From assembly GCA_027061805.1 (NCBI GenBank), contig JAMOWA010000029.1:1-48447 (forward strand): DNA of 48,447 bases, read 5' to 3'. Under the pieces are notes generated by a model, which saw only the letters and a list, made by a program, of their open reading frames with translations, was not told the DNA's origin and did not search any database. Numbering within the stretch: the first letter of the stretch is position 1; every line of letters begins with the position of its first letter. The translations under genes were made by a program, and so were the position numbers. Shown here in pieces: positions 15,318-38,791 of this stretch. The DNA is from Thermoanaerobaculia bacterium. GTDB lineage: Bacteria > Acidobacteriota > Thermoanaerobaculia > Thermoanaerobaculales > Sulfomarinibacteraceae.

Positions 15318-16415
15318 AGCGTCCCCCCGCCGTCTTTCCACCGTCAGCTGCACGACCTCGGCGAAGGTGGCGAGACAGCGCTCGGGATCGAACTTCTCCC
15401 TGACCCGTGCTGCTGCGGCCCGTCCGAGCGCCTTCCTCCGATCGGGGTCGCCGAGAAGATCCAGGGCGAGCTCCGCCGCCTTCTCCACGTCTCCGCTCGG
15501 ATAGAGAAGCCCGTCCACGCCGTCCCGCACCAGCTCTGGGAGAGCTCCCACCCTGGCGGTCACCAGCGGCGCCCCCGCAGCCATGGCCTCCAGTGCAGCG
15601 TACCCGAAGGACTCGTTGCGGGTCGTGAGAAGGACGATCCCGCCAGACCCGGTCAGCTCGCGATACAGACCCGGCATCGCCTTGCGGGGCAGGAGGGGCC
15701 ACCACCGGAGGGCACCGGCGACCGGGCGTCCATCCAGCGAGCGCCTGAAGCGCTCCCGCTCCTTGTCTGCCGACCGGCCCCCACCCACCATCCACAGCTC
15801 CACGTCCCGCCTGTCGAGGAGGCGGTCCCCGATGGCCAGGAAGTCACTCCAGTTCTTGAGAGGGTCGATCCGGCCCACCCATGCCACCACCGGTGCACCC
15901 CCATCCGCGGGGGCGTACCGCTCGGCGGGGGGGAACTGGTCCACTGGAATGAAGTTCGGGACCACGTGCCGCGGCACCTCGAGCCGGAGCCTCTTCGGCA
16001 GGTGGGGTTCGACGTTTGTGGCCTGGAAGTGTGAGGGGACGACGAATGCGTCCACGCGGTGTCCTTCAAGCCTGGAGAGCTCCTGGAGCGTGTGGTCGTA
16101 GGTGCTCCTCAGCTCGAACATCAGTGCCCCCGACCACCACGGAGCCTCCCGTATCCATTCGAGGACATCCAGGGTATCCACGACACTGATGATGTCGTAC
16201 TCGCGTTCGCGGAGCAGCTTGAGGAAATCCTCTTTCCTCGAGCTGAGGTACGCACGGTCATGGAGGTTCGCAAAGGACTTCCAGCCACCATAGTCGCGGA
16301 AGAACAGAGCGTCGGCCTCGATGCCGTGCCGCGGGAGCAGCTCCAGCCTCGACCGGATGCCCGTCTCGACGCCGCCCAGCGTGCAATAGCGGTAGACCAG
16401 GAGCAACCGGATCAT
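15300..16415 (-). CDS. Family 4 glycosyltransferase
   Basis: A 371-residue GT-B enzyme starting MIRLLLVYRYCTLGGVETG; the GGVE motif is typical of GT4 N-termini. The C-terminal donor domain shows VVAWVGRIDPLKNW near 205, VELWMVGGG, and the E-x7-E block NESFGYAALEAMAAGAPLVT near 305. It transfers a nucleotide-activated sugar in glycan assembly; acceptor and sugar are unknown. The ATG overlaps the stop of the large pyruvyl-transferase fusion (ATGA), so the two are coupled and probably act on the same glycan. An upstream in-frame extension to 16505 is rejected because it runs inside that gene. Confidence 0.92.
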   Translation of the reverse strand: MIRLLLVYRYCTLGGVETGIRSRLELLPRHGIEADALFFRDYGGWKSFANLHDRAYLSSRKEDFLKLLREREYDIISVVDTLDVLEWIREAPWWSGALMFELRSTYDHTLQELSRLEGHRVDAFVVPSHFQATNVEPHLPKRLRLEVPRHVVPNFIPVDQFPPAERYAPADGGAPVVAWVGRIDPLKNWSDFLAIGDRLLDRRDVELWMVGGGRSADKERERFRRSLDGRPVAGALRWWPLLPRKAMPGLYRELTGSGGIVLLTTRNESFGYAALEAMAAGAPLVTARVGALPELVRDGVDGLLYPSGDVEKAAELALDLLGDPDRRKALGRAAAARVREKFDPERCLATFAEVVQLTVERRRGDASGSVE

Positions 16416-19252
16416 GGAGTTCTCCGCATGGTGGCCAGGAGGCCGGTGACCGGGGGGGGGAGGTCTCCGGGCAGATCGAGGAGTGTTCGCCCACGTTCGA
16501 GCCATGTGCTGGAGGCGACGAAGCGGCGGGCCTCATCCCGGGGAAACGGCTCGTGGGCGGCCGCCTCGAGCGCGGCCACGAAATCCTCGTCGGCACCCAC
16601 GGCCCGAACGCCAGGATAGTCACCCACGTGGGGAACACCGGTGGCAACCACCGGCAGGCCGAGGTGCAGGTACTCGTACACCTTGATGGGATCTGCACCG
16701 GCGCTCAGGGTTCCACGCTGGAAGGGCACGATGCCCACATCCCAGTTCGCCGTGTAGGCGGGCAGGAGGTGATGCTTGACCTTTCCGAGCAGCTCCACGT
16801 TGGAGGGAAGCTGCGCGGCGGGTGGCTCTCCATAGCCGATGATGTGGAACTTCCATGTGGGACGTTTCCGGGCGGCGTCGGCGAGGAGGTTCCAGTCGAA
16901 CCACGCCTGTGCCAGATAGCCGAAGTAGCCAACGGTGACCTCTCCTCTCTGGAGAGGGACCGTCTCAACATCGTGCGAGAAGGAGTCGGGGTCCACGCCA
17001 TTCGGAACGATCGCCACATCCCTTCCGGGCACCCAGGAGCGGACCTGGTCCGCAAGGGGCGGTGCGACCACGGCCACGGCGCCTGCGTTCCGGCAGAGGT
17101 ACCGCTCCACGGCATCCTCGTACCAGATGGCCTTCCCGGCCCGATGGAACTCCGGCCAGTCGTCGATCACGTCGTAGACGGTCTTCCACCCGGCCAGGTT
17201 GAACTCGTTGATCCACTGGAAGGTCGAGGGGTGTGGGAACTCCATCACCGCCGTGCGGTGCAGATCGTTCCTGAAGGGGAACCCGAAGACCATCTCCTTG
17301 AGCCGGTCGAAGACGTCCATGGGTATCTGGAACAGGAGCGGGTGGGTCCCCCGGGGCACCGGGTCCCCACGTTCGCTCTGCCAGCGGAAGTACACGAGAA
17401 GGCAGGGTACGCCGTCCTGGGTGAGCGCCCGGACCATCTGTGTCACGCGCTGGCCCTCGCTCGCCACGTACTTCACACCGGATACCCACAGGGCCAGACG
17501 TTCGGAGTCTCCCGAATTCACGCGCTCCAGGAAGCGTTCGAGCTCGACCGCGAGTTCTCCCTCGCTCCGGTAGACCGCTGCGGCGTCCCGGGGAGGGGTC
17601 GGGGCTGACCCTTCCGGCGTGGAGACCGTCGTGGCATGTTCCTCCCCGGAGGTTCCCGCCGCACTGGCCCCGGCCCATCCCTTGACGAGTCTCTTGAGGA
17701 ACCCGGGAACCAGCCTCCAGCCCGCAAGGACCCATCTGCTCGAGGTGATCCGCACGAGGAGCCGCCAGTACGGTGAGGCCCACACCTGCTCCAGACGGTC
17801 CGATACGTCTCGCAACGTCGCACGGGTACCTTCGAGCCGCTCGGCCAGCTCTGCGCTGCGCTGGCGGGCCGTGGCGAGTTCCTGTCCCAGCTGCTCCAGC
17901 TGCGCCTGCGAGGACGCCAGGCGCCGCTCGAGATCACGCTGCCGCGACCTGCTGGCTTCCAGGTCTGTTGTGAGCTGTCTCTCACGCTCTCGAACCGTCT
18001 CCAGCGTCCTTCTGAGCTGTGCCTCGCGGTCCCGGGCGGCCTCCAGCCACCGTTCGAGGGATGCCGCCCGGGCACGGGCGCTCGGCACCGTGCCGGGAAC
18101 CACCGTCCAGGTCCTTCTCGCTGGCGTCCGGCGTTCGGCGTACGAGGCGAGCCGATCCGCAAGGGCATGGATCGCCAGCCTGGAGCTCTCGAGGTACGTG
18201 CTGCCCACGGCCGCGAGGTGTTCCGAGACCTGGTGACGGCTCTCCCAGAGGGTGGTGAGAGAGGAGACGACCGCATCGGCGTCGACGGTGTCGAGGCCGA
18301 GGCTGGGGAGGCCTGACTCCTCTGCGAAGGCCGTGACCTTGGGGTCATACGGCAATGCCAGGGTCGGAACGCCGGCCATGACGCCGAAGATGGCACCGTG
18401 AAGGCGCATTGTCACCAGCAGGGAGCACGCCCGCACCGCCTCGATGCTCCTGGAGGGTTCCGACAGGTCCTCCCGGATTGGAAGGTCCACGTTTGCCTTC
18501 TCCGCGATACGCCGAAGAGTGTCCCGGTCGTCCGACCGGCCCGCGTGCGAGAACGGCAACCCGACCAGGTCCGCCTCCACCGCCCGTGCAAGACGCGCTG
18601 TCCCGCTCAGGGTGGCCACAAGGGCATCGTCGTCCACGTTCCTGAACGACCGGAGAGCAATCCCCACCAGGGGCCGGCTTCGCACGGTCGCGGAGCCCCG
18701 GATACTGGTGGCAAGGAGCACCGCAGGATCGGGGTACACCTCCACGGGCCCGTCGAACCCGAGCTCCCTGAGCAGGGACCCGGACCCGCGGTCCCGGACA
18801 CCCACGTGTGCGGCGCCTGCAAACACCCAGCGCACCTGGCGGCGGGCAACGGGGTCGCTCAAGGGGCCCACACCCTGCCCGACGATCTCCACCGGTACCC
18901 CCAGGGACATTGCCAGGGCCGGTATCCTCAGGAAGTGACTGAGCCCCCCCCACGCGTCGTCGAGGATTGCGGCGGGGCCGTTCCACCAGTAGTCGTTGCA
19001 GAGGCCCCCTCCACCGAAGACCAGTGCGTCGGCGTCGGCCAGCGCCTCCCCGATGGCATGAATATCGAGCCGATCGAGGCTGGTGACCCCATGGATGCGG
19101 TGTGTGGTGTCCGGTTCCGCCGACAGCACGAGGAACTCGGCCGAGGGCAGGCGCTCCCTGATCCCGGCGAGCATCCCCGCAAGGATTGCCTCATCACCGA
19201 GGTTCCCGGCACCAAAGTACCCGAAGATGACGACCCGTGGAGACCGGGACAT
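16412..19252 (-). CDS. Fusion of CsaB-like pyruvyl transferase, coiled coil and glycosyltransferase
   Basis: A 946-residue protein. Residues about 1-385 match the polysaccharide pyruvyl transferase family: IFGYFGAGNLGDEAILAG near 8, LVFGGGGLCNDYWWNG, GQGVGPLSDP, and VTMRLHGAIFGVMAGVPTLAL. Residues about 390-490 are an Arg/Glu/Gln-rich heptad coiled coil ending in ASPYWRLLVR, a joint often seen in surface-glycan enzymes. Residues about 580-946 are a TuaH-like GT-B domain: YDVIDDWPEFHRA, IVPNGVDPDSF, and DPIKVYEYLHLGLPVVATG. CsaB relatives add ketal-pyruvate to wall polymers recognised by SLH domains. I place the start at 19252 (ribosome site GGAGGG, 4 bases); an in-frame ATG at 19450 would add 66 unlikely residues. 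Confidence 0.88.
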   Translation of the reverse strand: MSRSPRVVIFGYFGAGNLGDEAILAGMLAGIRERLPSAEFLVLSAEPDTTHRIHGVTSLDRLDIHAIGEALADADALVFGGGGLCNDYWWNGPAAILDDAWGGLSHFLRIPALAMSLGVPVEIVGQGVGPLSDPVARRQVRWVFAGAAHVGVRDRGSGSLLRELGFDGPVEVYPDPAVLLATSIRGSATVRSRPLVGIALRSFRNVDDDALVATLSGTARLARAVEADLVGLPFSHAGRSDDRDTLRRIAEKANVDLPIREDLSEPSRSIEAVRACSLLVTMRLHGAIFGVMAGVPTLALPYDPKVTAFAEESGLPSLGLDTVDADAVVSSLTTLWESRHQVSEHLAAVGSTYLESSRLAIHALADRLASYAERRTPARRTWTVVPGTVPSARARAASLERWLEAARDREAQLRRTLETVRERERQLTTDLEASRSRQRDLERRLASSQAQLEQLGQELATARQRSAELAERLEGTRATLRDVSDRLEQVWASPYWRLLVRITSSRWVLAGWRLVPGFLKRLVKGWAGASAAGTSGEEHATTVSTPEGSAPTPPRDAAAVYRSEGELAVELERFLERVNSGDSERLALWVSGVKYVASEGQRVTQMVRALTQDGVPCLLVYFRWQSERGDPVPRGTHPLLFQIPMDVFDRLKEMVFGFPFRNDLHRTAVMEFPHPSTFQWINEFNLAGWKTVYDVIDDWPEFHRAGKAIWYEDAVERYLCRNAGAVAVVAPPLADQVRSWVPGRDVAIVPNGVDPDSFSHDVETVPLQRGEVTVGYFGYLAQAWFDWNLLADAARKRPTWKFHIIGYGEPPAAQLPSNVELLGKVKHHLLPAYTANWDVGIVPFQRGTLSAGADPIKVYEYLHLGLPVVATGVPHVGDYPGVRAVGADEDFVAALEAAAHEPFPRDEARRFVASSTWLERGRTLLDLPGDLPPPVTGLLATMRRTP

Positions 19253-19477: not shown

Positions 19478-19790
19478 GAGCCTGTTGCAAGAGTCCCGGA
19501 TCGAGGTGGATTCCCGCGGCATCGGCCCCCACCCACCCGGGAGAATGAACCACGGATTATTCGGAATTATCGGAGTCAGAAGAAGATAGAATGAATCCGG
19601 AGATACTATGGGGGACGCAACGCACCAGACCGAGCCGCCAAGGTTCCGATGGCCAGTCATCGGTGCGAGAACGCCCCGGCAATCTTGAGATTGCCAGTTG
19701 TCTGTGTCGGGATGCTTTCCTTCGCCTTAGTACCTTCGATTTCACGACTCGCCGATGGGTATGACCTTCAGAGAGTCTTGCAAGCGGCTC
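19478..19790 (-). mobile_element. MITE-like repeat, copy 2, with 4-bp target duplication
   Basis: Both terminal inverted repeats are intact: GAGCCTGTTGCAAGAGTCC at the left and, read inward from the right, GAGCCGCTTGCAAGACTCTC. The element is flanked by AATG on each side (19474-19477 and 19791-19794), a perfect 4-bp target duplication. It is longer than the other copies because about 130 bases are inserted in the middle. The right end lies inside the stop codon of the adjacent gene. No protein is encoded, so movement would need a transposase supplied elsewhere. Confidence 0.82.
19602..19732. repeat. Insertion nested inside MITE copy 2
   Basis: Compared with the copies at 33224 and 45656, about 130 extra bases separate AATCCGGA from CCTTCGATTTCACG. 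The extra DNA contains a perfect 7-bp hairpin (GGCAATC-TTGA-GATTGCC, 19678-19695) and no reading frame of note. No other copy is found in this window. Confidence 0.5.
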
Positions 19791-21384
19791 AATGGTCACC
19801 GTTGCCAGAAGGTCCCCGGGGGACGCCGAAGATGACGCCGTCCCGAAACGTCCGCAACACGGGCGGATGACCTTCGTCGACGAGTTCCTCCCGTGTGGGC
19901 AGGTACCACCTCCAGGTGATCCTGTCCAGGTAGGCGATGAGAGCCGTGCCGTTCTTACACTGACGGATCATCTCCCGCGTCTGCTCTGTGTAGTGCGGGT
20001 TCGCCTCACGGGTTGTAGGAACGACCTTGCCGGGGATGCCTGTGGTCCGGCGGTGCAGCAGGAACCTGAGGACGTCAGGGCCGTTGGTGTACAGGAGACG
20101 ATCGTCTGCAACCTTCTTCAGGTAGGTGATCACCTCCGATTCCACCCAGGCTCGTTCGGTGTATCCCTGCCCGTACTGATGCATGTGAACGACCTGAAGA
20201 ACTGCCTCCCGGACGTGGAGAACGGTCGAGAGCGAGAGGAGGACAAGGGCGATGGGCAGGACCGGCCTCCAGCGGGCCGACACGGCGATTCCGGCAACGG
20301 TGATCAGGACCAGCGCAGGTACCATGATTCTCTGGTTGATCGAGGTATGGGCGTCAAGGAACGAGATGGAGACAAGCAGGAAGGCAAGATACGAGATCAA
20401 GAACAGCATACAGACGATGACAAAGACGGTACCCGCAGCCGGCCGCCGACGAGGCCTCCTGAGGGTTTCCTTCCCGAGAACAACGAGGGTTCCGATGAGG
20501 ACGAGGAGACCGCAGCCGCCCACGAGCACGCGGATCAACGAATCGTCCGACGTGATGGGTAGGAACCACTCCCACACCGTGGTGACGAGCATCGTGACAT
20601 CGTGGGAATCGAAGGGATGAACCCGGAAGGACCGGTTTGTGGCCGAGGCGGCCACAACCAGATTGCGGGCCAACCACATGAGGAGAGGGGAGAGGGCCAC
20701 CGTGAAGTACAGGAGGGCTCTCCTCGATCTCTCCCGCAGAGGCCGGTCGCCGAAGACGAGGAGCGCGACAGCCATCGCAGGAAATGCGGCGATTCCGGCG
20801 TATCGGGTCATCACCGCGCAGCCGAGTGTGATGGCGGAAAGGAGGAGGAGGCCGGCACGGTCCTGAGCGAGGGAAACGGAAAGGAGTACGACGCTTGTGA
20901 GGAGGAACGCGAGGAAAGGAGCCTCCGACCACGCCATGGAATGCACCATCAGGAAGGATGGAGACAAGGAGAAGAACAGCACGGCGAGAAAAGTTGCAAG
21001 GCTGTTCCGACCGCTCATCAGGAATGCGGTTGCTCCGAGCAAGACGAGATTGAGGCCGAAGAGAATGACGCACAGCCAGTGTGCCGCGAGGAGGACATCG
21101 CCATCCATCACGAGCCCGACTCCGGCCAGGAGCAGCGGATAGCAGGGGGGGAAATGCGTCAGTGGCCGGCCATCGACCGAGAAACCATTGCCCGAAAGGA
21201 GGTTTCTCGCGGTCTCGAGATAGACCGTGGAGTCGGGACTCACACCGGGACCCACACTCAGGATCCAGTTCATCCACAGGGAGGCACACAGACCGCAGGC
21301 CAGGAGGAGCAACAGAAGACCGGAACGCCGGAGTGCCCTTCCTGTCGAGAGGAACCAGGATCCGGTCGCCACGAGGACGGTCAT
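19789..21384 (-). CDS. GT-C membrane glycosyltransferase (ArnT/PMT, GT39-like)
   Basis: A 531-residue integral membrane protein with about ten hydrophobic segments. The first periplasmic loop shows SPDSTVYLETARNLLSGNGF, the acidic motif and helix typical of polyprenyl-phosphate-sugar-dependent GT-C enzymes; HFPPCYPLLLAG follows. The last 130 residues are soluble. Such enzymes move a sugar from a lipid carrier onto lipid A, protein or glycan on the outer face of the membrane. The ATG overlaps the upstream stop (ATGA). The TGA stop is built from the last base of a target duplication plus the first two bases of the adjacent MITE, so the native C-terminus has probably been altered. Confidence 0.85.
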   Translation of the reverse strand: MTVLVATGSWFLSTGRALRRSGLLLLLLACGLCASLWMNWILSVGPGVSPDSTVYLETARNLLSGNGFSVDGRPLTHFPPCYPLLLAGVGLVMDGDVLLAAHWLCVILFGLNLVLLGATAFLMSGRNSLATFLAVLFFSLSPSFLMVHSMAWSEAPFLAFLLTSVVLLSVSLAQDRAGLLLLSAITLGCAVMTRYAGIAAFPAMAVALLVFGDRPLRERSRRALLYFTVALSPLLMWLARNLVVAASATNRSFRVHPFDSHDVTMLVTTVWEWFLPITSDDSLIRVLVGGCGLLVLIGTLVVLGKETLRRPRRRPAAGTVFVIVCMLFLISYLAFLLVSISFLDAHTSINQRIMVPALVLITVAGIAVSARWRPVLPIALVLLSLSTVLHVREAVLQVVHMHQYGQGYTERAWVESEVITYLKKVADDRLLYTNGPDVLRFLLHRRTTGIPGKVVPTTREANPHYTEQTREMIRQCKNGTALIAYLDRITWRWYLPTREELVDEGHPPVLRTFRDGVIFGVPRGPSGNGDH

Positions 21385-22415
21385 GCGGACCTCGCAGACC
21401 GGCAGGCCCGGACATCGTCGATGATCTTGCGGGCCCTGGGCACCCAGGTGTGCTGGCGAAGGACCCGGCGGCGGGCGCGCCGTCCCACACGTGCCCGCTC
21501 CCGATGATCGTCGAGGAGGCGGTGTGCCGCCTCCACGAGCTCGTACTCGTCACTGTAGGTGGCGATCTCCCGGCCCGGCTCGAAGAAGAGCGCGAGGTTG
21601 GCAAACGGCTCGGAGAGCGAGGGTGTGCCGCAGGCGGCGGCGAACTGCGGCCGGTTGGTGATCCGGTGGGTGCCGTCGAGTGGGGAGCCGGGAAGCTCCA
21701 CCAGGGCCGTCTCGAGCGCAAGACGGGCGGCGGAGCAGGCGCGCGCCAGCTGGTCCGGGGTCGTGAGGGGCGGATGGACCGGGACGGAGAATCGCGTCTC
21801 TCCCGTGCGTGTGTGGACCCGGACCTTGCAGTGCGTCGAGAGAGCCTCCACCAGCCGGTGCCGGTAGGGGGTCCACTTCCCCACGTAGAGCACATCGCAG
21901 GGTTCGCCTCCCGGTGTGGGGCGGTACAACCCGGGATCCACGGCCGGGAGGCAGGTCCGTACGGCGATTCCCTCCCCCTCGTAGTGGGGGATGGTGTTCG
22001 GGTCCTGGGTGTAAAAGAGATCGAACGCCTTCCCGATGACCAGGGAGGCTTCCAGACCGAGGGGGTCGGAGAGTGCGAGCCCCACGGTCACGATGCTGTC
22101 GGGCAGGCCCCGCCGCACCTCATCGGGCAGGACGAGCCCGCCCCCCAGGCAGACCACCATGTCAGGCCGGTGGGAACCGATGAGCTCCAGGAGGGGCTCC
22201 GCGGGCACGGGCGCTGGCCTCGCACCGCCGCTTCCCACGAAGCCGGGGATGCCCATGGGCTCGAGGATCTCCACGGTGCACCAGCGGGCGAAGCCGTTGA
22301 CAATGGGGAGAAGGTTGTTGCAGTACGGCTCCTGGCTGATGTTGCCCACGAGCAGGGCCACGGGTCTCCGGGGGAACGGGTTCAGGAACCTGTCGCGGAC
22401 GGAGAGGGGCACCAT
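21381..22415 (-). CDS. CgeB-like glycosyltransferase
   Basis: A 344-residue GT-B-fold protein. The C-terminal part matches the Glyco_trans_1_2/CgeB pattern: CDVLYVGKWTPYRHRLVEAL near 170, HRITNRPQFAAACGTPSLSE near 262, and FEPGREIATYSDEYELVEAA near 288, ending in the helix HTWVPRARKIIDDV. The N-terminal half carries LVGNISQEPYCNNLLPI and VVCLGGGLVLPDEVRRG. The sugar and acceptor are unknown. The start at 22415 follows the divergent promoter region shared with the aminotransferase; an extension upstream would run antisense through that gene. It is coupled to the GT-C gene downstream. Confidence 0.83.
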   Translation of the reverse strand: MVPLSVRDRFLNPFPRRPVALLVGNISQEPYCNNLLPIVNGFARWCTVEILEPMGIPGFVGSGGARPAPVPAEPLLELIGSHRPDMVVCLGGGLVLPDEVRRGLPDSIVTVGLALSDPLGLEASLVIGKAFDLFYTQDPNTIPHYEGEGIAVRTCLPAVDPGLYRPTPGGEPCDVLYVGKWTPYRHRLVEALSTHCKVRVHTRTGETRFSVPVHPPLTTPDQLARACSAARLALETALVELPGSPLDGTHRITNRPQFAAACGTPSLSEPFANLALFFEPGREIATYSDEYELVEAAHRLLDDHRERARVGRRARRRVLRQHTWVPRARKIIDDVRACRSARSA

Positions 22416-22472: not shown

Positions 22473-23609
22473 ATGAACGACCCCATCCACCTGTTCCGGC
22501 CCCACTACCGGACCGACGAGGTCCTGTCGGAGATCCGTGAATGCCTGGAGCGGGGCTGGACGGGCCTCGGCTTCAAGACGCTCGAGATCGAGGAGGCATG
22601 GTGCAGGTTCACCGGACTGCCCCATGCGCACTTCGTGGCCTCGGCCACCTCCGGGCTGCACCTGGCGCTCCGGATCCTTGGACGGACGGACGGGTGGCGG
22701 CCGGGCGACGAGGTGATCACCACGGCCCTGACGTTCGTCTCCACCAACCACGTGATCCTCCACGAGGGCCTCGTCCCGGTCTTTGCCGACGTGGATGAGC
22801 ACCTGTGCCTCGATCCCTCCTCGGTGGCCGAACGGATCTCGGCGCGTACGCGGGCCGTGATGTTCGTCGGTGTGGGGGGGAACACCGGTCGGCTCGAGGA
22901 GGTCGCGGCCCTCTGCAGGGAACGCGGCATCCGGCTGGTTCTCGATGCGGCGCACATGGCAGGGACGCGCCTCGGTGGCCGTCACGTTGGCGGCGAGGCG
23001 GATGCCGCGGTCTTCAGCTTTCACGCCGTGAAGAACCTGCCCACGGCGGACTCGGGCATGGTCTGCCTCGCCGACCCCGGCCTGGACCGCGAGGTCCGGC
23101 AGTGGAGCTGGCTGGGCATCGACAGGGACACCTATACCCGGACCCATTCCCAGGCGGCCTACCGCTGGATGTACGACGTACCTCACGTGGGCTTCAAGGC
23201 CCACGGCAACTCGGTCATGGCCGCCATGGCCCTGGTGGGCCTCCGGTACCTCGAGGAGGACAACGCCAGGCGCCGGGAGATCGCTGGCTGGTACGATGAG
23301 GAGCTTGCAGAGGTGGCGGGTGTGGCGACGATCCCCGTTCCGGCGGATTGCGAGTCCTCGCGACACCTCTACCAGGTCCTGGTGGAGGACCGGGACCGGG
23401 TGATGGTGGAGCTCAACCGGCGGGAGATCTACCCGGGGGTCCACTACCGGCTCAACACCGAGTACCCCATGTACCGGGACTGCCGGGGGCGGGTCCCCCG
23501 TGCGGTATCTGCGGCATCGAGGGTGATCTCGCTTCCGATGCACCTCGGGCTGGACCGCGAGCAGGTGCACCGGGTGGTCCGGGCCCTCGTGGAGGTCACG
23601 GGGCCGTGA
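22473..23609 (+). CDS. DegT/DnrJ/EryC1/StrS-family sugar aminotransferase
   Basis: A 378-residue PLP enzyme that aminates a keto-sugar nucleotide. Motifs in order: ATSGLHLALRILG near 62, GDEVITTALTFVSTNHVI near 80, VLDAAHMAGTRLGG near 157, and FSFHAVKNLPTADSGMV with the PLP lysine at residue 187. The VHYRLNTEYPMY segment lies near the end, where this family usually has VHY-x-P. It overlaps the acetyltransferase gene by four bases (GTGA). The pair recalls WecE/WecD, Per/PerB or PseC/PseH modules producing an N-acylated amino sugar; which one cannot be settled from motifs. Confidence 0.93.
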   Translation: MNDPIHLFRPHYRTDEVLSEIRECLERGWTGLGFKTLEIEEAWCRFTGLPHAHFVASATSGLHLALRILGRTDGWRPGDEVITTALTFVSTNHVILHEGLVPVFADVDEHLCLDPSSVAERISARTRAVMFVGVGGNTGRLEEVAALCRERGIRLVLDAAHMAGTRLGGRHVGGEADAAVFSFHAVKNLPTADSGMVCLADPGLDREVRQWSWLGIDRDTYTRTHSQAAYRWMYDVPHVGFKAHGNSVMAAMALVGLRYLEEDNARRREIAGWYDEELAEVAGVATIPVPADCESSRHLYQVLVEDRDRVMVELNRREIYPGVHYRLNTEYPMYRDCRGRVPRAVSAASRVISLPMHLGLDREQVHRVVRALVEVTGP

Positions 23610-24139: not shown

Positions 24140-24160
24140 TACCACGGGTGGAGAGAGAAA

Positions 24161-27200: not shown

Positions 27201-27895
27201 TATTCGAGTCCGTAGGTGGCGTCCTGATCCTTGTCCTGGATGCCCACCGTGGCGCTGGCCCCCTGGTCGTAGAGGGGGTTGCCGAAGTCCACGTCCTCGT
27301 ACTGGAACAGGATGTGGCCGTTGTCGTAGAGGATCACCTCGAAGGTCACCTCACCGACACCGTTGTAGTGTGGCCTCTGGTACCACTCCACCACGAGGCA
27401 CTGGCCGCTGCCACCGTATGTGACGGGACAGGTGGAGAAGGTCTGGGAGTAGACGTCGCCCGTCTCTGAATCGAGGTCGTCCCAGAACACGGCGATGAAG
27501 GGGATGGACGGAGAGCTCGGCTCGAGAATGCAGACGTTCCCCGCCGGGAGGTTGCCGCCCGTGGTGAGGAGCAGGCCGCCGTTGTTCCCCACCGTCGCCT
27601 CGGTGTGGTCCACTCCATAGAAGGAGAAGGAAAAGCCGATGTCGATATCGGCCTCCCCGTCATCGCCGAGGTCCAGGGGTGTTCCCGTGGCCGTGATGTC
27701 CACGAAGTCGTACGGCGGACCCTGCGATGTCAGCCCATCCCAGTACTGGTAGCCGAAGGGGTCGGGGCCATCATGGGCCGGAACCCCGATGGGGCCCGAT
27801 CCAGACGCCGAGTCGTCACCCTTGCCGGGTTCGCCAGCCATGGCACCGAGGACGAGCAGGTGAAAGCACATGACAAGAACAAGAATTTTTCGCAT
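24221..27895 (-). CDS. Large secreted SLH-domain protein 1
   Basis: A 1224-residue protein with signal peptide MRKILVLVMCFHLLVLGAMAG. Approximate modules: nidogen-like beta domain 45-255 (GFSFSFYGVDHTEATVGNNG); Thr-Pro linker 256-283; carboxypeptidase-regulatory-like domain 287-345 (DAGHGWGLYARIDL); jelly-roll (MAM-like) domain 387-558 (FDGVSPPALPTGWTAVD); a second regulatory-like domain; a beta-propeller 750-980 (WGLGVRQDADTIWVG, DCLHEFDPADGTLTGGTICW). Three SLH repeats end the protein, about 1030-1224, each with paired cysteines (ACTGIF-DVPC, GVTAGC...FCP). SLH repeats usually anchor proteins to the cell surface. A GGAGG site precedes the ATG. Paralogous to the next two genes. No enzyme motif seen. 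Confidence 0.9.
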   Translation of the reverse strand: MRKILVLVMCFHLLVLGAMAGEPGKGDDSASGSGPIGVPAHDGPDPFGYQYWDGLTSQGPPYDFVDITATGTPLDLGDDGEADIDIGFSFSFYGVDHTEATVGNNGGLLLTTGGNLPAGNVCILEPSSPSIPFIAVFWDDLDSETGDVYSQTFSTCPVTYGGSGQCLVVEWYQRPHYNGVGEVTFEVILYDNGHILFQYEDVDFGNPLYDQGASATVGIQDKDQDATYGLEYSCNAANIHDGLAIYWSTDGLPPVVTPTPTPTPTPTPTPTPTPTPTPTPTPTPVPASFNGSVTDAGHGWGLYARIDLEVGGAPAATTFTDPFTGYYSVGLPAGETYDFTVTPLVDGYDPMTRSATLPEEGATESFAFVPTIPDCTAPGYDTNPPAATVLWSEDFDGVSPPALPTGWTAVDVSGTPGDWTTNAGTVHPSGSDAHSAPNLAHFNSWSVVAGTSTRLERTTDDTLAEGESPVVGLWVFHDTAYSTSNDRIQVQYSPDGGSTWLDVGNPISRYDGSSGWAYHEVELTGITGDVRIGLLGISGYGNDIHIDDVSLTTYVYSCTQLSGAMAAGFTTDANTGDPLVDVTVADGAGGSASSFATPDDTAVDDGLYLLFVDLGDGTTDRTLTASLDGYADTPVDVDLVAETVNRVDIALGSGLLEASPSGLESYLGPGEEELQFLDLINRGTSDAHVSFLPVETPGWVPATPARPLPAHAVPPDLLGTPTARDVVIPPVPAGAPLAAGDVLGTWATGLASPWGLGVRQDADTIWVGSITPGGGDGLNHEYNRDGTSTGTTVDTTTWPGIFAADMAFDVASGTFWQVDVDGDDCLHEFDPADGTLTGGTICWGATVSERGVAYDPMNDTFFVGGWHSHAVTRIDRDGTVLERAEVGYPISGLAFNPVTEHLFLIESSETDTVTVLDAANGYATLGSFTIPGFGNFSAAGLGISCDGHLWAVNQADSRVYEVDSGESEACRQSSLPWFEPLPVEGTVPSGGGILTLNGRFVADGAPHHGLVRGRIVIRHDTPYSMADIPLCLTRAFSDVSADHWAVDFIGALTGSRVGNGCGDNFFCPEDVMTRGIMAVWLIRAMHGPDYTPPACTGIFADVDCATTPNADYIEALYNEGVTAGCATDPLMYCPDDPVTRAQMSVFLLAAKEGSDYTPPACTGIFTDVPCPAHWAADWVEELYNRGVTAGCGGGNFCPNDNTSRAQMSVFITVNWDLPMCDVGQ
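27046..27128 (-). repeat. In-frame hexanucleotide tract encoding a Thr-Pro linker
   Basis: The coding strand repeats ACNCCN-type hexamers about 13 times, giving (TP)n ending in VPAS. Gain or loss of units keeps the frame, so length could vary without inactivating the protein. It separates the N-terminal domain from the rest and is absent from the two paralogues. Confidence 0.75.
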
Positions 27896-31100: not shown

Positions 31101-32848
31101 CTGATGGTGGTGGACCCATCGGTGGCGAGCACCTGGGCACCCTCGATGGGATCGCCCGTCCCCGAATCGGTGACGACACCACTGATCGTGCCCGAGGGTC
31201 CGGTGGTGCAGGCGGGGAACTTCAGTGCGCCGATCCGGGTCTGCCAGGGGGCGGACCCCGTGCTCGGCATGTACTCCGTGGTGAACCAGAAGGTGCAGTC
31301 GTCGGCGGGGTCCACACTCATGGAGGCGTAGTCACCCCAGCGTGCGGCGCTGTGGGTCTGGGAGCCAGATCCCGCGATCACCTCGGACTCGCCCTGGGCC
31401 AGCTGGCCCAGCGGATCCCCGGCGAGCCGACCGGCCCAGCGGATGCTCGGGTAGGTGGTGGAGCTGGAGACGCTGTAACCCACCAGGATGTTCCCGGAGG
31501 CGTCCATGGCCACATCGCCCATCCAGCGGTGGTCGCTGTCCGGTGCGTAGGTCCCGGCCTGGTAGAGGGTCCAGCCGGAGCCGGTGTCCCGGAGCTCGTA
31601 CCAGCGGACGCCAGCATGGTCGGACCCGTCACTGTCCACTGTGTGGGAGACGACGAGGGTCTCACGGTCCCCGAAGTTCCGGTACTGAAGCCGGTACATG
31701 AGCCGGGAGGACAGGGCATCCAGGCCCTGGGTGGTCCCCGGCTGCGGGATGCAGCTCCGGGCGTAGGCGCACAGGTCGGTGTCGAAGGGCGCAGAGCTGC
31801 TGAGGTCCAGGATGGAGGGGCCGGTGAAGGTTGAGTTGGCCGGCGTGGTCCAGTCCACGTGGAACTCGAAGAGCAGGAGCTCGTCCTTGTCGTAGGGTGC
31901 CGACTCGCCCCAGGAGTCGTCCATGAGCGTGATGAAAGGATTGGGAGCACCGGTACCCGGAGGGTTGAGGCCGTCCCAGTCAGCGGGAAGCAGGCTCCAC
32001 GCCCATGGGTTCGATGCGTTGGAGAAGAAGTACACCATCTGGGCAGGGTCGCCGGTGAGCATCTTGCTCCGCTCGAAGACCGCCGCCATGGCGCCCTGGT
32101 AGGAATTCGTGAACATGTTGGCGGAGTAGTAGTACCCGTCCGGCCAGACACCGAACTTGGGGTAATCCGGGAAGTAGCCGTTTCCGGCGTCCATGAGGTA
32201 GTCGTAGAGGTACCAGGTTCCGGTGGGGTCACCGCTCGTGGAGACGGCGATGCACTGGTGATTGGTCGTGGTGAACTGGCTCATGAACCAGCGGCCGGCC
32301 TGCTGGTCGTAGAGCACGATGGGGTCACCGTCGTTGTGGTTCTCGCAGTCGCCGCCGAATCCGGTCCACAGGGCATTGCCATTGTAGGGACCTGCGGCCA
32401 CGGTGCCGTCGGACTTGTTGAAGACCGCATAGGACAGGTTGACCCACTGCACGTAGTGGTCGATGCCCACGTCCCCGTTGGTGTCGGGGGGCAGCACGCC
32501 GTTGACGTTGCCCACGCCCTCGAAGTCGATGACCGGTGCGGGCAGGGCGAGAGGGCCCTGTCTGTCCTGCAGCCGCGTGTCCACCTGCCGCGTTGGCCCG
32601 TGGGCAGTGAGCAGGGCCGAGGGCAGCTCCGCGTTCCGCTCGTTCAGCTCACGGGGCTCGGCCTTGGACGGCTCGGCCCAGGTGTCAATCGTGGGCAGGT
32701 CCCGCAGGGCCGGTGAGATCCCGACCTTCTGCGGCATCAGCACACCCGAGGGGTGCAGGACGATATCCGCGGCGTTTCCGGCCACGGGGACCACTGTCAG
32801 GCCCACGACAAGCGCCAACAGTCCGACGAGATGTCTTCGATACTTCAT
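28133..32848 (-). CDS. Large secreted SLH-domain protein 2
   Basis: A 1571-residue protein with signal peptide (MKYRRHLVGLLALVVGLTVV, cut near GNAA). A propeller-like N-terminal domain (about 100-548) contains VLPPDTNGDVGIDHYVQWVN, FPDYPKFGVWPDGYYYS and SDHAGVRWYEL. Then come two carboxypeptidase-regulatory-like domains (550-725), a jelly-roll domain (736-905, FEGSFPPAGWTVVDNGGDC), another regulatory-like domain, a beta-propeller (1090-1325, WGLGVNQYADTIWVG) and three Cys-containing SLH repeats (1380-1571). I start it at 32848, where GAGGAGGA lies 8 bases upstream, not at the TTG at 32869. The N-terminal domain is shared with SLH protein 3 and the propeller with SLH protein 1. Role inferred: surface-anchored structural or binding protein. 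Confidence 0.9.
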   Translation of the reverse strand: MKYRRHLVGLLALVVGLTVVPVAGNAADIVLHPSGVLMPQKVGISPALRDLPTIDTWAEPSKAEPRELNERNAELPSALLTAHGPTRQVDTRLQDRQGPLALPAPVIDFEGVGNVNGVLPPDTNGDVGIDHYVQWVNLSYAVFNKSDGTVAAGPYNGNALWTGFGGDCENHNDGDPIVLYDQQAGRWFMSQFTTTNHQCIAVSTSGDPTGTWYLYDYLMDAGNGYFPDYPKFGVWPDGYYYSANMFTNSYQGAMAAVFERSKMLTGDPAQMVYFFSNASNPWAWSLLPADWDGLNPPGTGAPNPFITLMDDSWGESAPYDKDELLLFEFHVDWTTPANSTFTGPSILDLSSSAPFDTDLCAYARSCIPQPGTTQGLDALSSRLMYRLQYRNFGDRETLVVSHTVDSDGSDHAGVRWYELRDTGSGWTLYQAGTYAPDSDHRWMGDVAMDASGNILVGYSVSSSTTYPSIRWAGRLAGDPLGQLAQGESEVIAGSGSQTHSAARWGDYASMSVDPADDCTFWFTTEYMPSTGSAPWQTRIGALKFPACTTGPSGTISGVVTDSGTGDPIEGAQVLATDGSTTISTLTAADGSYSLTVPVGTYSLTASAFGYTPGSVTGITVNDGDAIVQDFALAALPSTVVTGTVTDAGHGWPLYARIDVVFNASTVATVYTSPFDGTYSVELPDGGPYEFTATSMIDGYETATQTGIIVTSGLVVDFQLAAISPDCTAPGYGIPGSYAMFEDFEGSFPPAGWTVVDNGGDCTWESTATTGRTNSTGGTGDAADADSDHCGSGSTMDTDLLSPAVDVSAFTQVTVEFKYDFNDYGGNDYGSVDISADGGSTWTHLIEWDGVDDRGPKTFSQDVTSIVSGSTSVVLRFHYDAPGWDWYFLVDDVRIYDSAGDTECTPFPGGLVEGFVTDAVTLDGINGATVTSDAGTSATTQGTPDDPGIGEGYYWLFTPTSGGTTHDFTASATNYSDETVTADVVPDDVIQVDFALASGWLEVTPTHMEARLYPGETDDQTLTLLNYGGAVANFRLVAVEQAGWVPSLPMDEVQDSAVPADNQNDMNARAATAPAPERGAPLAAGDVISSWAPGITFGWGLGVNQYADTIWVGNPGAGGGDDLDYEFTRTGTQTGLTVDTSSWMGSWAADMAFDPTTGMMWQVAVGGDNCIHEWNPSTGTNTGNSICWGASVSERGLAYDPISDTFFVGGWNTNAVTRFDRDGTVLQVANVNIGIAGLAYNPLTEHLFVMENSPTDTVTVLDVADNYNVVGTFTIAGFGNYAGSGLGFTCDGHLWAMNQVAQTVNEVDSGETGACLSGSLPWYVLTPDMGTVPAGTIDTPGQTDVNTQFIADGAPHWGLVQGKVVIIHDTAFPVDDVTLCLTKAFTDIPVGYWADTFIHALAGARISSGCGATTFCPSDVMTRGIMARWLIRAMHGPNYSPPPCTSIFTDVICETTPNADYIEALYNEGVTAGCATDPLRFCPDNPVTRAQMAVFLLAAKEGTGYTPPACTGIFTDVPCPAHWAADWVEELFNRGITAGCGTDIYCPDNNTTRSQMSVFMTVNWDFPTCNVD

Positions 32849-33544: not shown

Positions 33545-36500
33545 TCACTGACCGGTGTCGCACATGGGGAGATCCCAGTTGACGGTCATGAAGACCGACA
33601 TCTGTGCCCGGCTCGTGTTGTCGTTGGGGCAGAAGTTCCCGCCCCCGCAGCCCGCGGTGATGCCGCGGTTGAAGAGCTCCTCCACCCAGTTCGCAGACCA
33701 GTGGTCAGGGCAGGGGACGTCGGCAAAGATGCCGGTGCACGCCGGTGGCGTGTAGTCGGTGCCTTCCTTGGCAGCCAGGAGGAACACGGACATCTGCGCA
33801 CGGGTCACTGGGTTGTCCGGACAGAACATGAGCGGATCGGTGCTGCAACCAGCCGTGATCCCCTCGTTGTAGAGCGCCTCGATGTAGTCGGCGTTGGGTG
33901 TTGTCTCGCAGATCACATCGGTGAAGATGCCCTCGCACGGAGGCGGTGAATATTCCGCACCGTAGCGAGCCCTGAGCAGCCACCGTGCCATGACGCCGCG
34001 GGTCATCACGTCGTCGGGACAGAAGGTGCCATACCCGCAGCCGTAGGTGATCCTGGCGCCCGCCAGCGAGTGGACGAATGCCTGGGCCCAGTAGTCGGAC
34101 TGCACGTCGTTGAATGCCTTGGTGAAGCACACGGTGACAGGGTTCACGTCGTACGGTGTGTCGTGGTTGACGGTGATCCGGGCCTGGAACAGGCCGAAGT
34201 GGTCGGCACCATCCGCGATGAAGTGGGCGTCGATGGGCAGGTTGCCCTCGTTGGCCGGAACGGGGCCGTCCTCCGGCGTGAGGACCAGCCACGGCAGGCC
34301 GCCGCCGCCGGCGAAGGACTGCACGCCCAGGGCGCACACCTCGGCACCGCTGGGGAAGGCCCCCACCAGGGTGCTGGCACCCGTGGCGGTGTCGATGACA
34401 CGGAGCTCACCCGAGGAGGTGTAGGCCGCCCAGTAGAGCACCCCGGTCACCTCATCGAAGTCCATGCCTTGCGCGTAGTTGGCGTTCGTGCCAAGAGAAC
34501 CGACGGTGGTTCCGGCACCGGTGGCGGGGTCGATCTGTACCAGGGTGTCATTCACGATGTCCACGCCGTACATCTCACCTGCCGCGTTGATGGAAATGTC
34601 GATGATGCACGGGCCGTTGGTGATGGGCCCCACCGGCGTCGCCGCGCCCGTGGCCATGTCGATGGTGTAGAGCGTGGAGGCGCTGCACGTGGTGCCGGCG
34701 GCGTACATGGTGCCGTCCACGGAGGCCGTGAGACCGGACCAGGACTCGCCACCACCGAGGGTGGCGGTGCCGATGGCGGTGAAGGCGCCGGACGCCGTGT
34801 CCAGGTACCCGAAGGCCTTGGTGTCGAAGTCGAGCACGTAGAGCTTCGAGAAGTCGCCCATGTAGAAGTCACCGGACGGGTAGAAGGCCCCGCCCAGCGT
34901 GCCGACACTGGTCCAGGTCCCCGGGTCACCTGCGAGGTCGTCCCAGTGGACCAGATCGTTGCCGGGATAGGCGTTCACCGCGTAGGCGGGAACGGGTGCC
35001 AGCGGCAGGTTGGCGCCCCGCCCTGCGGCGATCGGACCCGCCGCGTGGGGCGCACGGCCCATGGAGGTGGGCTCGGTGTTGCCGGGGAGGTTCTCCAGGT
35101 CGAAGTCCGGGGCCTGGTGATCCCAGCTCGTCATGACGGGTACCGGAATCACCTGGACGGTGGCGTCGACGCCACCGTGGTTGATGACGTCGAGGGGCTG
35201 ATGCTCCTCCTCGCCCATGTGGAGGTAGGACTCCAGATGGGTGGGCATGACCTCGAGCCAGCCTGCCTCCAGGGCAAAGTCGAGCCGGTTCACCGTGTCG
35301 GGGGCCGGGTTCATCTGCGTCTGAGCTTCGGCGTAGCCCGGGGCGTCCACGGTGAAGGTCCGTGTGGACGGGCCCTCGCCCGTGGGCAGGTTGGTGAAGA
35401 GCCAGTAGAAGCCCTCACCAAGGTTCGGATCGTCCGGTGTGCTCGCGCTGATCCCCATGTTGCCCTGATCGTCAAGGACGGTGGCGCCGATGAGGCCGTC
35501 ACCGGTGTTGGCGTCGGTGACGAAGCCCTCCATCAGGGCTCCCGAGACGGGGAGGCACTCCATGTAAGGATCGGGGGCCGGCGGCACGAAGGCGCTGCCG
35601 GGATCCTGCTCGTACACCCGGAACTCGTCCACCAGCCAGTACCAGTCCCAACCGGCGGCCTGGTAGGTCCAGCGGAACGTGACATCGCCCTGGCCCGCCA
35701 GTGCGGTGGACAGGTCGGTCAGGAAGGTCTCGGGACCGACGTCGTCGGTGTGAGAGAAGACGGAGCTCCAGGTGGTGCCGCCGTCCGTGGAGTACTCGAA
35801 CGTCGCCACGTCACTGGTGCCCAGGGCGTTGAAGTAGTGCTTGAACTCCACCCAGACCTCGGTGAGGGCACTGAAGTCGTAGCTGGGGGAGATCATGCTG
35901 GTGTCCATGGTGGTGCCGCCACCGCACTCGTCGGAATCGGCGTCGGCGGCCTCACCGGCGCCACCGGTGATGTTGCCGCGGCCCGTCGTGGCCGTGCTCT
36001 CCCACACGCAGTCACCGCCGTTGTCGACGATGGTCCAGTCCGAGGGCGGCCAGGTCTCGAAGTCCTCGCTCGCGGCGGTCGGGACGGGGGCCGGCAGCGC
36101 GAAGGTCTCCACGTCGTCGATCTGCCAGAACCACGAGGAACCGGCGTTGCAGGTGTAGCGCCAGCGGATCTGGATGGTCATCCCGGCGTAGGCCGAGAGG
36201 TCCAGCTCGTGGGTGATCCCTCCGAAGGGCTCGTCCGAGGAGGTGGTCCAGAGCTCAGTCCATGTGACACCGCCGTCGGTGCTGATCTCCACGTAGGCAT
36301 CGCCGTTGCCCGCGTAGTCCTGGAAGTTGGAGTCGAAGCGCAGCCCGAGAGCCGGGTCGTCCGGCATCTCGATCATGGGCGACACGAGGACGGAGTTCCA
36401 GGCGCCAGAGCCCCGGGCGTTTGCGATGGCACTGAAACCGTCACCACCCGGCGTGCGGTTGCTGTCACCGGCCTTGTCATTGCGCTGCCAGACGCGGTCA

Positions 36501-38791
36501 CCACCGTCGAGGTCAACGGTGGTCCAGCCGGAGGGCGGGAAGGTTGTCTCGAAGCCCTCGTGCGGGATGCCGTCGAAGTACTTGCAGATGATCCACGGCA
36601 CGGTTCCACCGGCGTTCAGCGCGAAGCTGACGATGGCACCGGCCGAGTCCAGGATCACGTCCTTCTGTGCGGGATCGTACCCCTGGATCACGGAGGTGGC
36701 GGTGATCGTGTACTCGTTGCCCTGGGGCAGCTCCACCTCGTAGTAGCCGTTGAACGGATTGGTGTAGACCGTCGCCACGTTGGTACCCATGTAACTGACG
36801 TCGATCCGTGCGTAGAGGGGCCAGCCATGGACGGCCCCCGTCACGTAGCCATCGATGAAGGCGCTGTCCACGGGCTCCAGGGCAGCGTCCTGCACCGTGG
36901 TCTCACCTTCGACGATCTGGATTCCCGTGACGCTCGCCGGGGCGAAGCCGAAGGCAGAGAAGGTCACATCATAGGTATCCTCCGGCAGGTTGATGCCGTA
37001 GGACCCATCCGCCTGGGTGTACGTGGTGTACGCCCCGGCCTGGACCAGTGCACCCTCGATGGGGTCACCGGTATCGAGGTCGGTGACGGTGCCCTCGAGT
37101 GTGCCGAAGCCAGACGGGGTGCATCCTGGCATGGAGAAGGCGCCCACGTAGGTGTCCCAGACAAAGTTGCCGCCAGTGGCCACGTACTCCGCGGTGCCCC
37201 AGAAGGTGCAGCCGTCGGGATCCGTGTGCATGGCCGCGTAGTCGCCCCACCGGTTGCCGCCGGACTGGGAGCCACCGCCCGAGACGAGGACCACCTCGCT
37301 CTGCATGGTGCCCGCCGGGTCGGTGGCCAGGCGCGCCGTGTACCCCACGGAAGGATAGGTGGTGGAGCTGGAGATGGTGTAGATGAGGCCGATGTCGCCA
37401 TTCTGATCCACGGCGGCGCTGCCCATCCAGCGGTGGTCGCTGTCCGGGGCGAAGGTGCCGCCGTCATGGATGTACCAGCCAGAGCCCTCGTTGCGAAGCT
37501 CGTACCACCGGACGCCGGCATGGTCGGAGCCGTCGACGTCCACCGAGTGGGTGATGACCATCACCTCGTAGCCCAGCGTGTCCGTGAGGTTCCGGTAGTT
37601 GGCCGGGAACATGAACCTGTCAGCGAGCGAATCGACGGACTGGCCGTTGGGCTGCGGGATGCAGTTCCTGCTGAAGCCGCAGAGGTCCGAGTCGAAGGAC
37701 AGGCCCGCGGCAGTCAGGTCGATGTACCCGGGATCGGTAGCGCTCGTGGGACAGGTGAAGGCGGAATTCGCCGGGGTGGTCCAGTCCACGTGGAACTCGC
37801 AGATCTGGATGATGTCCACGGGATTGCCCCACGCGTCATCGTAGAAGGCCAGGTTGTAGTTCGGGGAACCGGCCGGCGGGGCGGGCCCGCCATCCCAGTT
37901 GGTGGGCTGGGGGAAGGCCGGCTGCACGGACTCGATGGAGAAGTACACGGCGGCCGGGTTGGCATCGCCAGCAAGCATGGCCGTGCGGTCGAAGACCGTG
38001 GTGGCCGAGTCGGCGTTCCCGAACTCGTTGACCGTCATGTAGTAGCCATCGGGCCAGACACCGAACTTGGGATAGTCAGGGAAGGCGGACCCGTACTGGT
38101 ACTGCCAGGCGTACCACGCTCCCGTGGGATCGGCCGTCTGGGAGACAGCCAGGCACATGGCATAGGGGCTCGTGGCCATGAACTGAGCCATGAACCAGCG
38201 CCCGGCGCCGTGGTCGTAGAGCGTGATGGGATCACCGTCGTTGTTGGAGGCGCAGCTCGTGCCGGGCAGGGCGTCGGCCCAGATCTGGTTCCCGGCGTAG
38301 GGGCCGGCTGCCACGGACCCATCGCTCTTGTTGAAGATGGCCCACACCAGGTTGATCCACTGGATGTAGTAGTTCATGCCCACCGCACCCTGGGTGTCCG
38401 GCGGCATGACCCGGAAACCGACCACGGACTGGTTGGTATCGCTGTTGAGGCCGTCGAAAGCAGCCAGGGGCGACGGGGCCAGGGAGCCGTTCACCTCGGT
38501 CAGGCGGGACTCGCCCCCGGGCTCGGTCGCGGGCTTCTCACCGTCGAGATTGAGCACCGGAAGCTCGGTGGTCTCGCGGTTGGGAACCTCCCGGTCCTGT
38601 GCTCCGACGAGAGGCTCAACGGGCTTCATGTCGCGGAGCGGCTGGCTCACGCCGAAGGCCGTCGGCCGCAGGATCTTCGTGGGGTGCAGCGTTCCCCCTC
38701 CGATCGGTGTCTCGCCGGCCTGCGCCGGAACGAGCCCCGCGATCATCAGGATGGCCACCACCACGGTGACGTGTCGAACTAGTCCTCGCAT
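33545..38791 (-). CDS. Large secreted SLH-domain protein 3
   Basis: The largest gene here, 1748 residues. The N-terminus (MRGLVRHVTVVVAILMIAGL) is a signal peptide. A propeller-like domain at about 117-555 is shared with SLH protein 2 (MPPDTQGAVGMNYYIQWIN, FPDYPKFGVWPDGYYMT, SDHAGVRWYEL). Carboxypeptidase-regulatory-like domains follow (560-715), then two tandem jelly-roll domains (about 740-893 and 910-1064, the second with WPPSDWTIVDNGGDCVWES). Another regulatory-like domain, a beta-propeller (1277-1500; WSGLTASVDGTMYA) and three Cys-containing SLH repeats (1560-1748) complete it. Its propeller differs in sequence from that of the other two. GGAGGAGAAC precedes the ATG. Expected to be surface-anchored; ligand unknown. 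Confidence 0.9.
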   Translation of the reverse strand: MRGLVRHVTVVVAILMIAGLVPAQAGETPIGGGTLHPTKILRPTAFGVSQPLRDMKPVEPLVGAQDREVPNRETTELPVLNLDGEKPATEPGGESRLTEVNGSLAPSPLAAFDGLNSDTNQSVVGFRVMPPDTQGAVGMNYYIQWINLVWAIFNKSDGSVAAGPYAGNQIWADALPGTSCASNNDGDPITLYDHGAGRWFMAQFMATSPYAMCLAVSQTADPTGAWYAWQYQYGSAFPDYPKFGVWPDGYYMTVNEFGNADSATTVFDRTAMLAGDANPAAVYFSIESVQPAFPQPTNWDGGPAPPAGSPNYNLAFYDDAWGNPVDIIQICEFHVDWTTPANSAFTCPTSATDPGYIDLTAAGLSFDSDLCGFSRNCIPQPNGQSVDSLADRFMFPANYRNLTDTLGYEVMVITHSVDVDGSDHAGVRWYELRNEGSGWYIHDGGTFAPDSDHRWMGSAAVDQNGDIGLIYTISSSTTYPSVGYTARLATDPAGTMQSEVVLVSGGGSQSGGNRWGDYAAMHTDPDGCTFWGTAEYVATGGNFVWDTYVGAFSMPGCTPSGFGTLEGTVTDLDTGDPIEGALVQAGAYTTYTQADGSYGINLPEDTYDVTFSAFGFAPASVTGIQIVEGETTVQDAALEPVDSAFIDGYVTGAVHGWPLYARIDVSYMGTNVATVYTNPFNGYYEVELPQGNEYTITATSVIQGYDPAQKDVILDSAGAIVSFALNAGGTVPWIICKYFDGIPHEGFETTFPPSGWTTVDLDGGDRVWQRNDKAGDSNRTPGGDGFSAIANARGSGAWNSVLVSPMIEMPDDPALGLRFDSNFQDYAGNGDAYVEISTDGGVTWTELWTTSSDEPFGGITHELDLSAYAGMTIQIRWRYTCNAGSSWFWQIDDVETFALPAPVPTAASEDFETWPPSDWTIVDNGGDCVWESTATTGRGNITGGAGEAADADSDECGGGTTMDTSMISPSYDFSALTEVWVEFKHYFNALGTSDVATFEYSTDGGTTWSSVFSHTDDVGPETFLTDLSTALAGQGDVTFRWTYQAAGWDWYWLVDEFRVYEQDPGSAFVPPAPDPYMECLPVSGALMEGFVTDANTGDGLIGATVLDDQGNMGISASTPDDPNLGEGFYWLFTNLPTGEGPSTRTFTVDAPGYAEAQTQMNPAPDTVNRLDFALEAGWLEVMPTHLESYLHMGEEEHQPLDVINHGGVDATVQVIPVPVMTSWDHQAPDFDLENLPGNTEPTSMGRAPHAAGPIAAGRGANLPLAPVPAYAVNAYPGNDLVHWDDLAGDPGTWTSVGTLGGAFYPSGDFYMGDFSKLYVLDFDTKAFGYLDTASGAFTAIGTATLGGGESWSGLTASVDGTMYAAGTTCSASTLYTIDMATGAATPVGPITNGPCIIDISINAAGEMYGVDIVNDTLVQIDPATGAGTTVGSLGTNANYAQGMDFDEVTGVLYWAAYTSSGELRVIDTATGASTLVGAFPSGAEVCALGVQSFAGGGGLPWLVLTPEDGPVPANEGNLPIDAHFIADGADHFGLFQARITVNHDTPYDVNPVTVCFTKAFNDVQSDYWAQAFVHSLAGARITYGCGYGTFCPDDVMTRGVMARWLLRARYGAEYSPPPCEGIFTDVICETTPNADYIEALYNEGITAGCSTDPLMFCPDNPVTRAQMSVFLLAAKEGTDYTPPACTGIFADVPCPDHWSANWVEELFNRGITAGCGGGNFCPNDNTSRAQMSVFMTVNWDLPMCDTGQ

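Follow-up and report, generated by a model that had tools for sequence, protein, structure and literature searches.

A 48,447-nucleotide stretch of DNA from a Thermoanaerobaculia bacterium of the family Sulfomarinibacteraceae (contig JAMOWA010000029.1; hereafter the window, meaning the whole stretch) carries a CsaB-type pyruvyl transferase fused to a glycosyltransferase, a polysaccharide exporter, and three large secreted proteins that end in S-layer homology (SLH) repeats. The reading that we favor is that this locus makes a pyruvate-capped polysaccharide exported by an ATP-binding cassette (ABC) system, and that the locus-encoded SLH proteins dock on the cap, probably at the outer membrane. 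It draws on domains, on catalytic and SLH ligand residues, and on genomic linkage, all as read from the sequence. A preliminary description of the window had proposed one locus for the polymer and its docking proteins, and as genomics this proposal is well supported by co-occurrence and by adjacency across genera and phyla.

The fused pyruvyl transferase

The two genes at the center of the locus are the following:

16412..19252, minus strand: fusion protein of 946 amino acids, comprising a CsaB-type pyruvyl transferase (residues 1-374), a long helix (392-492) and a GT4 glycosyltransferase (564-930), as indicated by TIGR03609, PF04230, PF13692, an AlphaFold2 model and residues for phosphoenolpyruvate (PEP)
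15300..16415, minus strand: GT4 glycosyltransferase (PF00534/PF13692)

The open reading frame (ORF) of the fusion, 16412-19450 on the minus strand, opens at TTG, but the preferred start is the ATG at 19252. Residues 6-321 match the CsaB profile TIGR03609 with 206.6 bits (profile positions 1-297 of 301), compared with 33 bits for the WcaK model. This score is 6.5 bits under the curated cut-off of TIGR03609 (213.1), but we dropped that cut-off as a criterion, because the CsaB of Paenibacillus antarcticus, our proxy for the characterized P. alvei enzyme, also falls below it, with only 182.7 bits; E. coli WcaK scores 88. The equivalents of R148, R207, R306, H308 and K328, the PEP-binding residues that were tested or docked in P. 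alvei CsaB (PMC10435577), are all present in the fusion. WcaK has them as well, so they indicate pyruvyl transfer rather than the choice of acceptor. In two trees, built with short searches and showing long branches and few outgroups (since the public scan relied on one CsaB-like motif), the domain lies within a clade of 41-43 rows (Shimodaira-Hasegawa-like approximate likelihood-ratio test, 97-98) among Bacillota CsaB rows; the clade consists mostly of fused proteins from Acidobacteriota and Chloroflexota, with WcaK and the exopolysaccharide-type enzymes of Rhizobium and Streptomyces outside it. On profile scores and trees we reject a WcaK or exopolysaccharide-type identity, in keeping with the earlier assignment to CsaB. 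The fusion is the sole PF04230 gene in the 3.1-Mb draft genome. Bacillaceae proteins with the reversed order, GT4 ahead of CsaB (L090, L105, L106, L110), form a separate clade.

The AlphaFold2 model, computed for a single chain rather than an oligomer (mean predicted local distance difference test, pLDDT, 76.7), shows a folded region at residues 1-374, a single helix at 392-492 with pLDDT of about 60, and a GT-B part at 564-930 that belongs to GT4 (PF13692); a coiled coil is also backed by profile matches of the SMC/tropomyosin type. Compared with PDB folds, the fusion matched GT-B structures and a multienzyme of capsule synthesis, with no pyruvyl transferase chain among the matches listed. 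The following GT4 gene begins with an ATG at 16415, inside the stop codon of the fusion (a 4-bp overlap). Profiles, helix and overlap thus bear out the description of a CsaB-like domain joined through a coiled coil to one glycosyltransferase and coupled to a second. The same description had called the fusion unusual, which our data do not support: it recurs in most CsaB genes that we recovered from Acidobacteriota and Chloroflexota, and its layout matches the terminator-ruler-polymerase order of O-antigen systems.

SLH triplets and their genomic linkage to CsaB

Three proteins of the sizes first described, each with a triple SLH end, lie 5-19.5 kb from the fusion:

24221..27895, minus strand: secreted protein of 1224 amino acids with a C-terminal SLH triplet (PF00395, 50.3 bits; signal peptide identified by eye)
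28133..32848, minus strand, ATG at 32848: secreted protein of 1571 amino acids with a C-terminal SLH triplet (PF00395, 41.1 bits; PF13620)
33545..38791, minus strand: secreted protein of 1748 amino acids with a C-terminal SLH triplet (PF00395, 50.6 bits; PF13620)

Each bears a signal peptide and, by local profile, three tandem repeats; the whole-protein scores of 41-51 bits compare with a cut-off of 20.8; the top PDB sequence match of the 1748-residue protein is the S-layer protein Sap. A Pfam scan found no outer-membrane barrel family in any of the three. In SpaA, a ligand groove is built from the Arg of one repeat, the Gly of the next and the Trp of a third, and these residues bind pyruvylated N-acetylmannosamine (ManNAc) solely at the non-reducing-end residue of the chain (PMC6081394). 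Mapped on the SLH profile, Trp13, Gly29 and Arg43 are retained in repeats 1 and 3 of all three window proteins, and grooves G2 and G3, assigned by analogy with SpaA, are complete in every one of them. Neither of the two results that the preliminary description had named as contrary to it, a clustering with other pyruvyl transferases and the loss of these SLH residues, was obtained. A few further multi-SLH proteins are encoded outside the locus, so the cluster is not the only source of SLH proteins in this genome. Other contigs of the genome (L001-L008) encode about eight secreted proteins of ~230-300 amino acids that have a single SLH repeat apiece, located at the C-terminus and of the type CGGGNYCPDDPxTRAQM.

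To compare relatives, we used 60 genomes of the Acidobacteriota class Thermoanaerobaculia and its kin, including the window's own (G000), and counted a match of 139 bits or more as full-length CsaB. Full-length CsaB is present in 13 of the 60 and SLH in 18, and all 13 CsaB genomes are SLH-positive (hypergeometric 1.7e-9, uncorrected for kinship). The co-occurrence spans five families (f1, f2, f5, f10, f11), all of which except f10 include members without both. In 9 of the 13 genomes (G000, G008, G013, G022, G023, G025, G048, G051, G054) CsaB is separated from an SLH gene by no more than about 7 kb, so that the co-occurrence anticipated for relatives is accompanied by proximity. These nine differ in weight: G051 (L048/L063; same class) is uninformative for adjacency, since the SLH tail of the window matches it more than 100 times; the CsaB neighbor in G025 and G054 has one profile-detected SLH repeat; and in G023 this tail finds a single match genome-wide, 3.8 kb from CsaB. 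Fusions of CsaB with a glycosyltransferase (CsaB-GT) also adjoin SLH-triplet proteins in Chloroflexota, confirmed by Pfam in L057, L066 and L084 and recognized by local profile and eye only in L083, L086 and L094. Among loci with enough flank (36 fused, 33 single-domain; the sequences are related, so the p values are optimistic), 20 fused loci but only 1 single-domain locus have an ABC polysaccharide exporter no more than 10 kb from CsaB (p 1e-6); for a protein with at least two SLH repeats the counts are 18 and 6, respectively (p 0.011). Co-occurrence and repeated adjacency lead us to reject a chance neighborhood of CsaB and SLH genes.

More directly than genomic data usually can, some exporter ATPases hint that the CsaB-GT product is read by SLH repeats. 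They themselves end in SLH repeats and are encoded directly beside a CsaB-GT gene, in a Thermoanaerobaculia metagenome-assembled genome (L050 = L074) and in one from Nitrospirota (L108):

L050:7050-8636, plus strand (= L074:8409-9995): ATPase-SLH protein (ABC_tran 74 bits, SLH 36 bits)
L108:8772-9968, plus strand: ATPase-SLH protein (ABC_tran 77 bits, SLH 32 bits)

In Proteobacteria with this type of enzyme (L100, L111, L137), the ATPase carries Wzt_C instead. The SLH repeats apparently stand in for this cap-reading module; if confirmed, the arrangement would be a new variant. Among the papers searched, a single one, on Klebsiella O1, names SLH along with Wzt, and does so once. The ATPase-SLH copies have lost some groove residues; in a structural model the ATPase part is good and the SLH part has pLDDT below 50, so that its helix pattern alone was used. 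With one case among 396 Acidobacteriota and one among 148 Nitrospirota genomes sampled, these fusions are too rare to be a common design.

Export, anchoring and the proposed mechanism

The exporter genes lie at lower coordinates than the fusion and its partner GT4 gene, on the opposite strand:

10648..13638, plus strand: GT4-GT2 polymerase-like protein fused to a Wzm-like ABC-2 permease, 996 amino acids (PF13692, PF00535, PF01061)
13641..14435, plus strand: polysaccharide export ABC ATPase, 264 amino acids (PF00005; best models TagH/Wzt)

The permease scores 81 bits with the Wzm/RfbD model versus 28 with KpsM, and it shares one reading frame with the GT4-GT2 part. Fusions of a GT2-like domain with a permease also appear by local profile in L042 and L043, where Pfam detects the permease only.

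Where would the exported chain be anchored? The preliminary description had envisaged a wall polymer, and a classical secondary cell-wall polymer, that is, a pyruvylated glycan on peptidoglycan that holds the SLH proteins at the wall or in the periplasm, the arrangement of Bacillus and Thermus, would suit the families to which CsaB and SLH belong, the presence of wecB and the fact that the layout is common to Chloroflexota. We nevertheless consider it unlikely. No LCP ligase (PF03816) was found in this genome or in any of the 13 CsaB-bearing genomes, by a search that was positive in Thermus, Deinobacterium, Synechococcus and Thermotoga, and the SLH proteins lack a barrel that Pfam can recognize. 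Because LCP is missing, while LptD, proteins of the Wzy_C/WaaL family and a Wzm/Wzt-like exporter are present, a peptidoglycan-linked polymer is doubtful, and we tentatively rate an outer-membrane glycan above it.

Several observations weigh against our proposal. The Wzy_C matches may be polymerases rather than WaaL-type ligases, a ligase of another kind could act where LCP is absent, and the window genome is a draft assembly. Five relatives are SLH-positive without full-length CsaB (G004, G019, G021, G045, G056). The window ATPase has no Wzt_C or SLH cap-binding module in the domain scan, and groove G1 lacks its Trp in all three SLH proteins. Finally, a conjugative plasmid of Pseudomonas sp. 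BYT-5 (L137, 2953-6015) carries a pyruvyl transferase-coiled coil-GT4 fusion, together with an ABC permease and a Wzt_C-bearing ATPase, and no SLH was found on the plasmid; therefore the fusion alone does not imply SLH docking.

This plasmid, and the frequent clustering of surface genes, would fit a pyruvylated O-antigen or exopolysaccharide unrelated to SLH, with a neighborhood due to coincidence or to such clustering; the co-occurrence in 13 of 13 genomes and five families, the repeated adjacency (including G023) and the ATPase-SLH fusions beside CsaB-GT make this improbable. It is similarly improbable that the Cys-containing SLH triplets have lost pyruvylated-sugar binding in favor of another contact, such as protein-protein docking: the TRAE motif is mostly replaced by TRAQ or TRGxM and repeat 2 has Pro instead of Trp at position 13 in all three proteins, but Arg43 and Gly29 are kept in 9 of 9 repeats, and TRAQ is no bar to binding because repeat 3 of SpaA is also TRAQ and its Arg still forms part of a ligand groove (PMC6081394).

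The docking of SLH proteins on a pyruvate-capped, exported chain can be set out as a sequence of steps, in which we infer which sugar accepts the pyruvate, that the cap is placed at the chain end, that the helix acts as a ruler, where the polymer is finally anchored, and that the SLH proteins bind it. With PEP as donor, the CsaB domain would attach pyruvate to the sugar at the non-reducing end, probably a ManNAc made available through wecB. The long helix would space the capping domain from GT4, as in WbdD and WbbB, so that capping follows once the chain has reached its length. The Wzm/Wzt-like exporter, its permease fused to the polymerase-like protein, would move the chain out, and the chain would most likely end on the outer membrane in the manner of an O-polysaccharide, where the secreted SLH-triplet proteins would grip the pyruvate cap. 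A chain terminator would leave just such a terminal pyruvylated residue as SpaA binds. That ManNAc is a building block is supported by the presence of wecB; the link is weakened by its distance of 21 kb from CsaB and by its proximity to CsaB in few relatives.

It is instructive to compare this scheme with known systems. The pyruvyl transferase family, the PEP residues, the SLH Trp/Gly/Arg set and the UDP-N-acetylglucosamine (UDP-GlcNAc) 2-epimerase are shared with the CsaB-SLH systems of Bacillus anthracis and P. alvei; there, however, a stand-alone CsaB of ~400 amino acids serves a peptidoglycan-linked polymer, whereas here CsaB is fused to a helix and a glycosyltransferase, beside a Wzm/Wzt-like exporter and in a genome without an LCP ligase. 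The order terminator-coiled coil-glycosyltransferase is that of the Klebsiella pneumoniae O12 and O7 proteins WbbB and ORF6-O7 (PMC11231755), with an ABC exporter adjoining, as also for WbdD, and the coiled coil is an established length ruler in O9a/O3 and O12 (PMC11231755). Those terminators transfer methyl, phosphate or Kdo, in contrast to the ketal-pyruvyl transferase here, for which the ruler role is predicted. We class the fusion, from its domains, as likely to work like the WbdD/WbbB terminators but not as a full member, because the window ATPase lacks a cap-binding module; for the same reason the cap probably does not gate export at this locus. A terminal pyruvate on an ABC-exported polysaccharide has its parallel in WbbZ of K. 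pneumoniae O1, which belongs to a clade other than CsaB and does not set chain length (PMC10629545); no SLH partners are described for WbbZ, whereas the window fusion has SLH neighbors.

SLH domains in diderms are also known from the SlpA/OmpM tethers of Deinococcus and Negativicutes, which combine SLH with a membrane barrel; the window proteins have their triplets at the C-terminus, and Pfam finds no barrel in them. The proposed anchoring resembles that of Caulobacter RsaA, a surface protein held non-covalently by the O-antigen of lipopolysaccharide (LPS) (PMC6978808), but RsaA uses its N-terminal domain as the anchor instead of SLH (PMC8559796). According to a review of S-layers, no anchoring domain is widespread among Gram-negative surface-layer proteins (PMC8559796). 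Pyruvate as a ruler-type O-chain terminator has been predicted in other bacteria, with no biochemical proof (PMC10629545). The locus joins these two questions in one gene set of terminator, exporter and protein readers. More tentatively, it is possible that in LPS-bearing Acidobacteriota SLH proteins sit outside the cell on a pyruvate-capped, ABC-exported O-polysaccharide rather than on the wall, and that SLH also serves as the cap reader of the exporter in the cytoplasm, as the ATPase-SLH proteins of L050 and L108 would suggest; if true, one recognition fold would both license export and anchor surface proteins.

Other glycan genes of the window

The remaining genes related to glycan synthesis are these:

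14490..15317, plus strand: possible sulfotransferase, weak (PF13469, 16 bits, E 0.014, below cut-off)
19789..21384, minus strand: membrane GT-C/PMT-like protein (PF13231, 28.5 bits)
21381..22415, minus strand, start near 22415: PF13524-type glycosyltransferase (79 bits)
22473..23609, plus strand: DegT/DnrJ aminotransferase of amino-sugar synthesis (PF01041, 282.7 bits)
40411..41541, minus strand: wecB/mnaA, UDP-GlcNAc 2-epimerase for UDP-ManNAc supply (TIGR00236, 384.9 bits, cut-off 210)
41586..43511, minus strand, 5' limit uncertain: GT2 glycosyltransferase (PF13641, 42.5 bits)

Among the glycan genes named at the outset, the exporter (ABC-2 permease and ATPase) and wecB, well over its cut-off, are confirmed, and the sulfotransferase is weak. 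The supposed amino-sugar pair is reduced to its aminotransferase, the ORF behind it (23689-24258) having no Pfam match. Homologues of the PF13524-type glycosyltransferase adjoin SLH genes in relatives. A longer version of this protein (P0007, 729 amino acids) was rejected, its first ~385 residues being antisense to the DegT gene. At 42980-45375 on the minus strand the window has two adjoining ArsA/GET3-type ATPases, the second ORF opening with an AMP-binding C-terminal stretch, which may be part of an upstream gene.

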